Virus record (IMG/VR): IMGVR_UViG_3300020472_000052
Coordinates: 1-46,356 of that record
Length of the DNA: 46,356 nt
Source: a virus
Strand: one strand, 5' to 3'
Part shown: positions 9,368 to 14,273 of the stretch, piece by piece
How positions within the stretch are numbered: the stretch's first letter is position 1
How the letters are laid out: each line of letters opens with the position of its first letter
Translations under genes and position numbers: made by a program
Notes under the pieces: generated by a model
What the model saw: the letters and a program-made list of their open reading frames with translations, nothing else
What the model was told of the DNA's origin: nothing
Database searches by the model: none

Positions 9368-10941
9368 CCAACGAATTCGTAAGGCACATGCCTTGCAGTA
9401 ATTGTGGCTCATCAGATGGGAATTCCCTTTATACTGATGGGCACACATACTGCTTTGTCTGTCACGAAAGAACAGGCGACAATGCTGTTATTCACAGTCA
9501 AAGAATGACTAAAACTGTACACCTTACTGGCTCAGCCGAACGGCTGCATAAAAGAAAGATATCTGAAAAGACTAATAGATTCTTCCAAATCTACAGGGAC
9601 GGGGACGTGTTACGGTTTCCTTACCATGATGAATCAGGTATATTATTAGGTGTTAAAACCAAGACAAAGCAAAAAGACTTTCGATATGAAGGAGTTTCCA
9701 CTGATACCTTATTCGCTCAGCATAAGTTTCCTAATACTGGTAAACGTATTGTTGTTACTGAAGGTGAACTAGATGCAGCATCGTGTTATGAAGCTATGCC
9801 AGGATGGCCTATGGTTTCCTTACCACATGGTGCTGCTAGTGCGAAGAAAGATATACAAAAACAAATCCCATTGTTCCAAGGTTATGAAGAGATTGTATTA
9901 TTCTTCGATGGAGATGACGCAGGGCGTAAGGCGGCTGAAGAGGCGGCATCAGTATTACCAGCTGGCAAGGTATCCATCGCTCGCCTTGAAGGCTTTAAAG
10001 ACCCCAGCGAGGCTTTACAAGCTGACGATGCTGAAGCGATTCGAAAGGCTATTTGGGACGCTAAACCCTTTAGACCTGATGGCATCGTCGATGGCAAGAC
10101 ACTCCTCAAGACAGTTACGACACCGCAACCACCATTTGATCATGAATACCCCTTCGCAGGACTTAACAAGAAACTACACGGGATCAGGTACGGAGAACTT
10201 ACTACATTTACTGCGGGCACTGGAGCCGGAAAGACATCAATCATGCGTCACCTCGCAACTGATTTACTCCAAAAAGGGGAATCAGTTGGGATCTTGGAGC
10301 TTGAAGCAAGTAATAGAAGAACAGCACTTGGACTGATGTCCACAGCTGTTGGGAAAAACCTAGCACTAGGAGAACACACAGAAGATGAACTTACAGAAGC
10401 TTTCAATAATTCCATTGCTAATTGGAATTTGTATATGTTTGATGGGTTCGGAAGTTTTGACCCCGATCTTATCTATAACCGCATTGAGTATATGGCTACG
10501 GGATTGGAATGTAAGATTATATTCTTAGATCACCTATCCATATTATTAAGTGGTCTATCTGGTGATGAGCGTCGCATGATTGATTCTACTATGACAAAAT
10601 TAAGATCATTAGTAGAACGTACAGGCATAGCTCTATTCCTAGTATCACATTTACGGAGAAGTAATAATGACAGTAATGCGCACGAAGAGGGTGGAAGAGT
10701 TTCCCTCTCACAACTACGAGGATCTCATTCGATTGCTCAGATCTCAGATAATCTCGTTGGGCTCGAAGTCGATCAACAAAGTGAAGGAGGAAGAAGTCCT
10801 ACGACTGTTAGAATCCTTAAAAATCGTTATTCTGGCGAAACAGGCACGTGCGGAACACTCAACTACAACTTAAACACTTGCAGATTTACAGAAAATGAAG
10901 CTACGGAACCACCAGTTTTCAACCCAGCCACAGATTTTTGA
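9355..10941 (+). CDS. DNA primase/helicase (T7 gp4-like)
   Basis: Bifunctional replication-fork protein, 528 aa. The N-terminal zinc-binding domain has Cys14, Cys17, Cys33 and Cys36 (CSNC ... CFVC). The TOPRIM primase core shows VVTEGELDAA and FFDGDDAGR. The C-terminal RecA-like hexameric helicase has Walker A GTGAGKTS, Walker B-like IIFLDHLSIL, and the later motif LVSHLRR. Start ATG 9355 overlaps the endonuclease stop. A TTCACAGTCA element at 9491 encodes part of Ile-His-Ser-Gln between the zinc and TOPRIM parts. Confidence 0.96.
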   Translation: MVNLTNEFVRHMPCSNCGSSDGNSLYTDGHTYCFVCHERTGDNAVIHSQRMTKTVHLTGSAERLHKRKISEKTNRFFQIYRDGDVLRFPYHDESGILLGVKTKTKQKDFRYEGVSTDTLFAQHKFPNTGKRIVVTEGELDAASCYEAMPGWPMVSLPHGAASAKKDIQKQIPLFQGYEEIVLFFDGDDAGRKAAEEAASVLPAGKVSIARLEGFKDPSEALQADDAEAIRKAIWDAKPFRPDGIVDGKTLLKTVTTPQPPFDHEYPFAGLNKKLHGIRYGELTTFTAGTGAGKTSIMRHLATDLLQKGESVGILELEASNRRTALGLMSTAVGKNLALGEHTEDELTEAFNNSIANWNLYMFDGFGSFDPDLIYNRIEYMATGLECKIIFLDHLSILLSGLSGDERRMIDSTMTKLRSLVERTGIALFLVSHLRRSNNDSNAHEEGGRVSLSQLRGSHSIAQISDNLVGLEVDQQSEGGRSPTTVRILKNRYSGETGTCGTLNYNLNTCRFTENEATEPPVFNPATDF

Positions 10942-11110
10942 ACATTATAAACATCCGTGGTATGAGCACAATGAGAAATTAGATAAGCAAGAATTAATTA
11001 AACCTAACCCACCTACGCAACAAGCAATTGAAAAGGCCAAATTCGTTGACAAAACCTACGAGTGGGATAGGACCAATAGTATTCGACCTAGAAACAAACG
11101 GTCTACTTGA
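10895..11110 (+). CDS. Hypothetical protein between primase and DNA polymerase, 71 aa
   Basis: Charged, proline-containing small protein (MKLRNHQFSTQPQIFEHYKH ... EWDRTNSIRPR). It overlaps the primase end by 47 nt and the exonuclease-domain gene by 83 nt or less. It is the only frame that fills the gap 10942-11027. No known domain; the overlaps on both sides keep confidence modest. Confidence 0.45.
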   Translation: MKLRNHQFSTQPQIFEHYKHPWYEHNEKLDKQELIKPNPPTQQAIEKAKFVDKTYEWDRTNSIRPRNKRST

Positions 11111-11600
11111 AAATGCTACCCACATCCACTGTATTGTACTTAATTATGTCAAAGAGAATTACACAGATAGTTACAACGATGAATGCCCTGGCAAAGGGAT
11201 GTCTAGCCCTGTGGTTAGAGCAATCCAATACCTCGAAATGGCTGATTATATCATCGGTCATAATATCGTGGGTTTTGATATCCCTATCATCAAGTCTATA
11301 TTTAGTTGGTTTAATCCCACTGGCATCATTATTGATACTCTTCTTTTATCTAGGCTTTATCATCCGAATTTACTCGACATAGATAAAAGACACGCATGGA
11401 AACACATGCCATTACAATTATATGGACGCCACTCCCTTGAGTCCTACGGTTACAGGTTAAATGAATACAAAGGAAACTTTGGACAAACTACTGACTGGCA
11501 GAAATGGTCTCAAGAAATGGAGGACTATTGTGTCCAAGACGTTAATGTAACCACAAAACTATGGAATCATTTCCTACCATACCTGAATGGATCACGCTAG
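11028..11600 (+). CDS. DNA polymerase A, 3'-5' exonuclease part (separate gene)
   Basis: Encodes only the proofreading domain of a T7-type family A DNA polymerase. ExoI is FDLETNG with Asp20 and Glu22, ExoII is GHNIVGFDIP, and ExoIII is YCVQDV. The protein ends right after the exonuclease fold; the polymerase domain is in the next gene, in another frame (-1 relative). The annotated start is TTG 11028; the true start is uncertain because the usual start just before IVFDLETNG lacks an ATG. The 40-nt overlap with the polymerase gene suggests coupled synthesis of two subunits. Confidence 0.88.
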   Translation: MKRPNSLTKPTSGIGPIVFDLETNGLLENATHIHCIVLNYVKENYTDSYNDECPGKGMSSPVVRAIQYLEMADYIIGHNIVGFDIPIIKSIFSWFNPTGIIIDTLLLSRLYHPNLLDIDKRHAWKHMPLQLYGRHSLESYGYRLNEYKGNFGQTTDWQKWSQEMEDYCVQDVNVTTKLWNHFLPYLNGSR

Positions 11601-12829
11601 AACATCAGGTAGCAGAAATCCTTACCCAACAACAAATCCATGGATGGTACTTTGATGAGCAAGCTGCACGGACACTTGAGTCTACTCTCCGAAAAGAGTA
11701 TGAAGACACTACTCAAGTACTTCGAAACAGGTATCCTTACGTCAAAGGAACAGAATTTACTCCTAAACGATCTAACAAAAGAACGGGATACGTCGAAGGT
11801 GCAACACTTACAAAACTAAAGGAATTTAATCCCACTAGTAGGGACCACATATCATGGATCTTACAGACACATTATGGCTGGACGCCTTCATCACTGACGA
11901 ACTCAGGGAAGGCAGTTATAGACGAGACCGTCTTAAAAGAACTTGGGACGGATATTGCTCTGAGCTTTCTGAAACTATTGGATCTGACGAAGCAGTTAGG
12001 GATGATATCAGAAGGCGTGAACGCATGGCAGAAGCTTGTTACGAAGTCTAGAATACATCATCACTGCTCAGTTGCTACAGCCACATTTAGATGTGCACAC
12101 CGTACTCCGAATCTCGGACAAGTTCCAAGTGATGAAAGATTTAGACGTTTATTTATTGCTACTCCAGGCTTACGAATGGCTTCTGCTGACCTTAGCGGGA
12201 TTGAGCTACGTATGCTTGCTCACTATCTCGGCAGATATGACGGAGGTAGGTATGCTAAGATCCTCGTCGAAGGAGACATACACCAAACAAATGCTGATAA
12301 GATTGGGGTTACAAGAAAACAAATCAAGACAATTTCGTACGCATTTTTGTACGGAGCTGGAAATGCCAAACTAGGACACTCTTATGACAAATTACTTTCA
12401 CAGTCAAAAGCCGAGAAGAAGGGAAAAGAGATTAGAGAAGCTTATATTGATGCCATACCAGGTCTTGCAGAACTCTTGGAGGGCGTACAAAAAGCTAGTA
12501 AGAGGGGTTATGTTCATGGACTTGACAACCGTAAGATCCTCGTTGACAAAGGACATAAGGCTTTAAACTACCTATTGCAAGGGTCGGCTGCAATAATAGC
12601 AAAGAAATGGATGGTTACCACTCATGACCATATCAAAGAAATGGGTTTACGCTGCAACCAGCTCGCTTTTATTCATGACGAGTTGCAGTTTGAATCCGAG
12701 CCAGAACATGTTGATGATCTCAAATCTCTTCTTGTTCTCTCCGCAGCTGAGGCTGGCGAGTATTACAATATGCGAATACCCGTAGGTGCTGAGGCTAAAG
12801 ACGGAGCCACATGGGCTGACACCCACTAA
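11561..12829 (+). CDS. DNA polymerase A, polymerase part (separate gene)
   Basis: Replicative polymerase domain, 422 aa, beginning almost exactly where the T7 gp5 polymerase domain follows its exonuclease domain (EWITLEHQVAEILTQQQIHG). Motif A is ASADLSGIELR with Asp210, motif B is RKQIKTISYAFLYGAG, and motif C is FIHDELQFE with Asp373. FNPTSRDHI, a T7-family landmark, is present. Its own ATG (11561) lies 40 nt before the stop of the exonuclease gene. It carries a TTCACAGTCA element at 12397 (LSQSK). Both halves look intact, so a split enzyme is more likely than a pseudogene. Confidence 0.93.
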   Translation: MESFPTIPEWITLEHQVAEILTQQQIHGWYFDEQAARTLESTLRKEYEDTTQVLRNRYPYVKGTEFTPKRSNKRTGYVEGATLTKLKEFNPTSRDHISWILQTHYGWTPSSLTNSGKAVIDETVLKELGTDIALSFLKLLDLTKQLGMISEGVNAWQKLVTKSRIHHHCSVATATFRCAHRTPNLGQVPSDERFRRLFIATPGLRMASADLSGIELRMLAHYLGRYDGGRYAKILVEGDIHQTNADKIGVTRKQIKTISYAFLYGAGNAKLGHSYDKLLSQSKAEKKGKEIREAYIDAIPGLAELLEGVQKASKRGYVHGLDNRKILVDKGHKALNYLLQGSAAIIAKKWMVTTHDHIKEMGLRCNQLAFIHDELQFESEPEHVDDLKSLLVLSAAEAGEYYNMRIPVGAEAKDGATWADTH

Positions 12830-12832
12830 CAT

Positions 12833-13597
12833 ATGAAATTATTAATAGATGCAGACTTCATCGTCTACAAAAATTGCGCTGCTGTCGAAACTGAACTTGA
12901 TTTTGGTGATGATGTCATCATTGTCACTTCTAATTTTAGCGACGCATATGCCGCAACAAATAGAGAACTTACCAGAATTAAAAACAAATTTGGGTCATTC
13001 TCTGATGTGATACTATTCTTCTCCGATAGTGAGAATTTTAGAAAGAAAATTTTACCTGAATATAAGGGTCATCGTAATCGTAAGAAACCTTGTGGATACA
13101 AGCGTGTTATAAACGCCTTACGTAAAGAGTATAAGGTTATCATTAAACCTACACTTGAAGCTGATGACAGCATGGGGATTTATGCTACAAAATACCCAGG
13201 AAATATGATTGTCTCTCCTGATAAGGACATGCGCCAAATACCTGGTAAATTATATAACTTTGATGAAACATTCACAGTCAGTAAAGAAGAAGGTGCAAAA
13301 TGGCATCTGATTCAAACCATGGCTGGGGATCAGACAGATGGTTATAAAGGACTCGAAGGAGTAGGAGTTAAAAGAGCTACTACTTTATTCGAAGATAAGG
13401 GTTACAGCTGGAAGACAGTATTAAATGCTTTTAAAGAAAAAGGTTTTACTGAAGAATCTGCTTTAGTTAATGCCCAATTAGCACGTATATTAACAGTAGA
13501 TGACTATGACTTCAACAAAAAAGAACCTAAACTTTGGACCCCCTCCCCCGATTACACAATTGACAGTGGAGCAAGATCTAAAAATGAGGATAATTGA
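12833..13597 (+). CDS. 5'-3' exonuclease (T7 gp6-like)
   Basis: FEN/RNase H-type nuclease that removes RNA primers and degrades host DNA. 254 aa. Metal-binding acids are visible in LLIDADF (Asp6, Asp8), LEADDSMG and VSPDKDMRQIPG, followed by the helix-3-turn-helix region MAGDQTDGYKGLEGVGVKRA. It directly follows the polymerase gene, as in T7. A TTCACAGTCA element at 13271 encodes part of TFTVS. The stop overlaps the next small gene. Confidence 0.92.
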   Translation: MKLLIDADFIVYKNCAAVETELDFGDDVIIVTSNFSDAYAATNRELTRIKNKFGSFSDVILFFSDSENFRKKILPEYKGHRNRKKPCGYKRVINALRKEYKVIIKPTLEADDSMGIYATKYPGNMIVSPDKDMRQIPGKLYNFDETFTVSKEEGAKWHLIQTMAGDQTDGYKGLEGVGVKRATTLFEDKGYSWKTVLNAFKEKGFTEESALVNAQLARILTVDDYDFNKKEPKLWTPSPDYTIDSGARSKNEDN

Positions 13598-13784
13598 AGA
13601 TAGACTTAATGAAACTTACGAAGAAAATAGAGAACATATCATTACTCTTTTCATGGCCTTACAACGACAGAACTTTGTACTAGGCAATTCACTCACCAAT
13701 TTATTAGACAAATGGCCAATGGTCCATCCTACTATAAACGAGGTTCCAGCGATGTTTGGGATTTCATTAGAGAGCAAGGATTAA
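13584..13784 (+). CDS. Hypothetical protein, 66 aa
   Basis: ATG 13584 starts MRIIEDRLNETYEENREHI, a charged helix, followed by a more hydrophobic helix and a short tail. It overlaps the exonuclease stop by 14 nt and the DUF3310-like gene by 73 nt in another frame. No family recognised. The frame is open to 13500, but the upstream part is the shadow of the exonuclease gene. Confidence 0.45.
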   Translation: MRIIEDRLNETYEENREHIITLFMALQRQNFVLGNSLTNLLDKWPMVHPTINEVPAMFGISLESKD

Positions 13785-14002
13785 ACTTTCATCTCGGAAA
13801 TGCTATCAAGTATATCTGCAGAGCAGGATTTAAAGATAGTAAAATTCATGACTTAGAAAAAGCTATTCATTATTTACAAAACGAACTCACCTATGAAAAA
13901 GACCTTTATTTCCGAGCAAGCCAGGGAATTCCGTACGAAGTACCAGCTCAAGAGCTCAGCGGATCGCTCCACGAGGTCGTGTCAGAAAAATCTGATTGTT
14001 GA
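13712..14002 (+). CDS. DUF3310-like (SaV-type) protein
   Basis: Small phage protein with the DUF3310 signature: SYYKRGSSDVWDFIREQGL, then NFHLGNAIKYICRAGFKD and DLEKAIHYLQNEL. The domain is widespread next to nucleotide-metabolism genes in phages and is thought to be a nucleotide-related helical protein, but its activity is unknown. The conserved part ends near residue 60; the C-terminal tail (110 nt) overlaps the MazG-like gene in another frame and is probably unconstrained. Confidence 0.8.
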   Translation: MANGPSYYKRGSSDVWDFIREQGLNFHLGNAIKYICRAGFKDSKIHDLEKAIHYLQNELTYEKDLYFRASQGIPYEVPAQELSGSLHEVVSEKSDC

Positions 14003-14273
14003 GGAGTTCAAAGAATTCTTAGAAGCTGAGGGGTCTTTATTTAGAGAACATCCTGACGCACAAGAAGAAACATTAAAAGAACTAGCTGATCTAGTATATG
14101 TATGTTATCAATACGCCGAGAACATGGGTTGGTTTTTAGATGAAGCATTAGATAGAGTACATAAAAGTAATATGTCTAAGCTAGGAGAAGATGGCAAACC
14201 TATATATAGAGAAGACGGAAAGGTTCTTAAAGGACCAAACTATAAACTACCAACTTTAACAGATTTATTTTAA
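13893..14273 (+). CDS. MazG-like nucleotide pyrophosphohydrolase
   Basis: 126-aa all-alpha NTP-PPase of the MazG/HisE superfamily. It probably hydrolyses (d)NTPs or (p)ppGpp-like compounds to adjust the nucleotide pool in the infected cyanobacterium. Metal-binding acids lie in VEEFKEFLEAEG and KELADLVYV (the ExxE...ExxD layout). The C-terminal SNMSKLGEDGKPIYREDGKV is typical of the phage version. It overlaps the DUF3310-like gene by 110 nt and the RNR alpha start as TAATG, forming a nucleotide-metabolism operon. Confidence 0.88.
   Translation: MKKTFISEQAREFRTKYQLKSSADRSTRSCQKNLIVEEFKEFLEAEGSLFREHPDAQEETLKELADLVYVCYQYAENMGWFLDEALDRVHKSNMSKLGEDGKPIYREDGKVLKGPNYKLPTLTDLF

Follow-up and report, generated by a model that had tools for sequence, protein, structure and literature searches.

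The replicative DNA polymerase of phage T7, gp5, is encoded by one gene. Relatives of the same polymerase family and with the same genomic position, namely the MPP-A cyanopodoviruses Syn5, S-CBP2 and SS120-1 as well as P-RSP2, the roseophage CRP-125 and the pelagiphage HTVC031P, carry a fused gene as well. In P-SSP7 (PSSP7_017A/017B) and S-TIP37 (STIP37_17A/17B) the polymerase is found as two genes in a -1 frame relation with a 40-nt overlap, and the notes in the corresponding GenBank records read 'split variant or programmed frameshift'. A 2012 paper on P-SSP7 gives a "putative frameshift or is a split variant" as confirmed by proteomics, which left a choice between the two (PMC3350473), and the question has been standing in the literature since at least that year. 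The split itself is already known; what the comparison adds is a probable and testable answer as to which mechanism operates. A phage replicative polymerase made of two polypeptides has also been described in family B, where Aeromonas phages 25 and 44RR have a split polymerase gp43A/gp43B whose halves, in the case of phage 25, co-purify and are active (PMC2988022).

The locus investigated here displays the same arrangement as P-SSP7 and S-TIP37, with two genes, a -1 frame and an overlap of 40 nt, and shares with them the positions of the polymerase start and of the exonuclease stop as well as the gene order. Its polymerase is 59% identical to that of P-SSP7 and 64% to that of S-TIP37, and its exonuclease gene starts at a TTG or GTG further upstream instead of the ATG of these two phages. 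The likeness to gp43A/gp43B is limited to the presence of two polypeptides, since the Aeromonas polymerases belong to the unrelated family B and the one studied here to family A, and their split is associated with either the gene of a homing endonuclease or an insert that is not translated, while ours goes with a linker indel and an overlap.

Two overlapping reading frames cover a T7-type polymerase

The window, by which we mean the whole stretch of 46,356 bases that was analysed, is an IMG/VR virus record that covers the greater part of the genome of an uncultured marine cyanophage, which is T7-like and belongs to the MPP-B type. Pfam and PHROGs identified T7-like RNA polymerase, primase-helicase, endonuclease, exonuclease, connector and capsid genes, and this gene set, together with the psbA and RNR genes also carried by the phage, marks it as a cyanopodovirus. 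The two polymerase genes, the features of their junction and the small gene upstream of them lie on the plus strand. The gene for a proofreading 3'-5' exonuclease (DnaQ-like) subunit, hereafter exo, occupies positions 11028 to 11600 (190 aa from a TTG start) and corresponds to T7 gp5 residues about 1-195, and the gene for a family A polymerase subunit, hereafter pol, occupies 11561 to 12829 (422 aa from an ATG) and corresponds to residues about 195-704. PHROGs designated the two products as 'DNA polymerase exonuclease subunit' and 'DNA polymerase I' respectively, and pol matched Pfam DNA_pol_A at 1.6e-43. In sequence comparison with T7 gp5, exo corresponds to residues 2-183 and pol to residues 212-248 and 319-704. 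The DEDD-type exonuclease motifs DxE, N...D and YxxxD are present and conserved in the exo alignment (D20-x-E22, N79...D84 and Y167xxxD171, numbered from 11028), and family A motifs A, B and C are represented by D210, K256, Y260 and H372-D373-E374, which are invariant in the pol alignment.

Structure prediction of the separate halves yielded mean pLDDT values of 89.8 for exo and 91.9 for pol, and both halves are thus predicted to fold well autonomously. T7 gp5 was the best structural match for each of them, with pol 1-422 placed on gp5 195-704 by VIA-align (Z about 38), and the comparison located the cut at about gp5 residue 195-200, that is at the boundary between exonuclease and polymerase. 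Jointly, the two halves are homologous to all of gp5 and include all of its exo and pol motifs. Around the thioredoxin-binding insertion of the thumb, T7 has about 70 residues (gp5 249-318) and the present polymerase about 30 (pol 46-75), a difference of about 40. At the DNA level the two halves lie in different frames, unlike the single exo-pol chain of T7 gp5, although recoding might still yield a fused product.

Both frames are read through the 40-nt overlap at 11561-11600, where the tail of exo is WNHFLPYLNGSR and the head of pol is MESFPTIPEWITL, the pol frame being -1 relative to that of exo. The first base of the pol start codon ATG (11561-11563) is also the third base of CTA (11559-11561), a Leu codon of exo. 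At the other end, the exo stop TAG (11598-11600) is made by the pol codons CTA-GAA (Leu-Glu), and 12 nt beyond it the exo frame has another TAG (11610-11612). An earlier note made from this DNA had described the two ORFs, the -1 frame and the 40-nt overlap as we find them, and its claims that the split falls exactly at the T7 gp5 domain boundary and that catalytic motifs are retained on both sides are borne out by the structure comparison and the alignments. Overlaps are ordinary in this module, because 11 of its 12 adjacent gene pairs overlap, by 1-110 nt.

The split is conserved and arose once

In order to compare the boundary in relatives, as the earlier note had proposed, we examined 347 sequences originating from four IMG/VR scans, GenBank stretches and the window itself. 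Ten could not be scored, mostly with the exo part or the junction missing or masked; in one of the loci (L037) exo is full of N and the apparent in-frame reading was discounted. The scored sequences comprised 248 split loci, 88 fused loci and P-GSP1, which is broken by extra indels. All 248 scorable loci of the clade, among them isolates whose sequences come from different groups, have the same -1 relation. The overlap measures 40 nt in 215 of the loci, 52 nt in 19, 34 nt in nine and 43 nt in five; the overlap of 52 nt is seen in loci that are devoid of the first TAG and read on to the second. Among these 248 loci no revertant to a fused frame was observed. Using tblastn, the arrangement was also detected in P-SSP7, S-TIP37, S-CBP1, S-CBP3, S-CBP4, NATL1A-7, S-RIP2, 9515-10a and others.

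A tree was built from 121 polymerases after removal of their first 12 residues. All split sequences, that of the window included, fell on one side of a single branch (SH-aLRT 100%), corresponding to one state change on the tree, while MPP-A and pelagiphage relatives are fused. The linker between the exo YxxDV and pol EH motifs measures 63 nt in 40 of the 44 fused representatives, which have one open frame, as compared to 50 nt in 76 of the 78 split representatives (selected at <85% nucleotide identity). We conclude that a net 13-nt linker loss, a single event at the root of the MPP-B cyanopodoviruses, gave rise to the split. Such a loss equals -1 modulo 3 and therefore places the halves in different frames. 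The exo frame then enters, out of register, the pol Leu-Glu codons (CTA-GAA or TTA-GAG), which are the source of the TAG.

These data also dispose of the idea that the split reflects an indel introduced during sequencing or assembly, or the decay of a polymerase gene. In favor of an indel, two PCR-derived 'complete cds' records of S-CBP1 and S-CBP3 (EF535232 and EF535233) read as a single frame, but each of them has, at the same spot within the overlap, one extra C that the genome record of its own phage lacks, generating a false single ORF, and the genome of S-CBP3 is available in more than one record, all of them split. Moreover, all of the 248 loci have the split, and on either side of it the motifs are intact and the proteins strongly conserved. 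Error and decay, which we regard as having practically no chance of being correct, are refuted for the clade, in agreement with the earlier statement that the locus encodes a two-subunit enzyme or a frameshift and not a gene in decay. The two PCR-derived records, which are counted among the 88 fused sequences, were excluded from the tree.

Start codons of the two reading frames

The pol start codon is found at the same place in all 248 split loci, as ATG in 245 and as TTG in three. In 78 representatives, the exo Leu codon that lies over it is TTA (39), CTA (36) or CTT (3), and none ends in C or G. By parsimony, the silent first base of this codon changed at least 19 times, whereas its third base changed only three times, always to T with a resulting TTG start. 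As a control, six further conserved Leu columns located earlier in exo were examined, and their third base underwent 14-28 changes. The following exo codon is restricted to TGG or TGC in the 78 representatives, as the start codon requires. These substitution patterns show that selection maintains the pol start codon inside exo. A used start codon predicts such a constraint on the third base and a frameshift does not, and two separate starts are therefore favoured. A Shine-Dalgarno site before pol was found in none of the 248 loci, and most genes of the window phage likewise have none. RNA structure is low at -10 to +10 around the pol start, a feature that is not unique to that place.

In exo, at the position of T7 Met1, 24 of the 25 representatives of the window's sub-clade have no ATG (but CCA, ACG, ACA etc.). 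All 73 loci of the sub-clade nonetheless carry a TTG, GTG or ATG 14-21 codons before the exo FDxETNG motif, and no such codon was found in the other two frames of this zone in the 25 representatives. In loci that lose the TTG of ATTGAA, the GTG of CGTGCC replaces it. Because the start zone is kept in all loci and is absent from the other frames, exo very probably starts on its own, and the codon at 11028 is likely to be its start. Since ATG is missing, we also considered that ribosomes might enter exo by a +1 frameshift out of the small upstream gene, but set this aside, given that the zone of TTG, GTG or ATG is kept in every locus. Across loci L001-L080, TTG and GTG interchange at neighbouring codons of the start zone (11020-11085), which lies wholly within the overlapping small gene at 10895-11110.

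Two proteins or a frameshift

Taken as a whole, the sequence comparisons strongly favor a gp5-type polymerase made of two separately initiated proteins from overlapping genes, exo (11028-11600) and pol (11561-12829). As the comparison shows, the linker of an ancestral fused gene lost a net 13 nt at the base of the clade and the frames parted, after which selection maintained the pol start, the exo start and both sets of catalytic residues. Translation of pol would begin at its internal ATG with no Shine-Dalgarno site, as for most genes of this phage, and ongoing translation of exo may assist it; separate exo and pol products would be present in cells, and the exonuclease would dock on the polymerase much as the T7 gp5 domains do, allowing proofreading in trans.

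The main alternative is a programmed -1 ribosomal frameshift in the overlap, producing a fused gp5-like polymerase alone or beside free exonuclease, as proposed in the GenBank notes. The existence of fused relatives and the invariably -1 relation of exo and pol are in line with it, although this relation is equally given by a single ancestral indel. Per-base conservation reveals that within the overlap, at about +10 to +22, coding constraint on the exo frame gives way to constraint on the pol frame, a handover that is compatible with both the two-protein and the frameshift models. In 90 of the 248 loci a closure of the pol frame from 3 nt before its ATG leaves only about 43 nt for a slip. A strict XXXYYYZ slippery heptamer occurs in none of the 248 admissible stretches, consistent with the earlier remark that a classic one is absent, and the weaker single-tRNA (P-site only) slip options that do exist are at variable places, without one that is conserved. 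Transcriptional slippage was considered as well and rejected, the longest homopolymer in the admissible stretches being 6 nt and present in five loci only.

A stimulatory RNA was sought with dinucleotide-shuffle z-scores over 46 nt and clade-wise RNAalifold. A possible hairpin, TACCTGA...TCAGGTA, spans 11580-11611 with the exo stop in its loop, at weak significance (mean z about -1.1). Hairpin tendency downstream is seen in two sub-clades, that of the window and, in another register, that of P-SSP7, and would fit a frameshift, but no helix is common to all sub-clades: the P-SSP7 and 9515-10a clades gave no common helix, and there is hardly any compensatory change. Nor did the z-scores point to a conserved stimulatory structure, with a local value of about -1.1 at +10 to +20 against -1.0 at the unrelated position +120. 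The constraint on the pol start codon, finally, is something that a frameshift does not predict, and on balance we consider this mechanism unlikely. A mixed expression, with mostly two proteins and a minor fusion from low-level frameshifting, could make use of the P-site-only slip options; however, neither a conserved slip site nor a conserved structure was found, and we judge it very improbable. Irrespective of these mechanisms, the hairpin and the second TAG (11580-11612) are well conserved in the window's sub-clade and could serve as a backup stop or reinitiation aid.

If the two-subunit reading is true, these abundant phages of the sea are a natural source of a family A polymerase whose proofreading can be separated from it. 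Separable proofreading of this kind is comparable to that of the alpha and epsilon subunits of E. coli Pol III. We further suggest, tentatively and with more doubt than confidence, that ever since this globally common phage clade arose its family A replicative polymerase has worked as a stable enzyme of two subunits, proofreading in trans, the amounts of the subunits being adjustable and proofreading hence tunable.

Sequence records and neighbouring genes

Because the gene is split, many genome records are without a polymerase annotation at this place, and old PCR-based polymerase records may be forced into one frame. S-CBP1, S-CBP3, S-CBP4, NATL1A-7, S-RIP2, P-SSP2, P-SSP3 and P-GSP1 have no annotated polymerase over the pol match, which is intact or nearly so in these eight GenBank phage records. 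P-GSP1 (L177, HQ332140) was set aside in our analysis for its further frame breaks, the extra indels in both its exo and pol frames being probably sequence errors. Polymerase marker databases may hold more false single-frame records like EF535232 (L164) and EF535233 (L166).

A small conserved upstream gene whose function is unknown (phrog_18695, 10895-11110) sits between the helicase gene and exo and overlaps both, the start of exo by 83 nt and in another frame. The exo frame dictates the final codons of this gene, in which the DNA encoding FDLETNG is read as RPRNKRS. Further downstream, at 13500-14273, three more small genes (phrog_27006, a DUF3310/nucleotide-kinase-like gene and a MazG-like gene) overlap one another and the upstream exonuclease gene by 73-110 nt.
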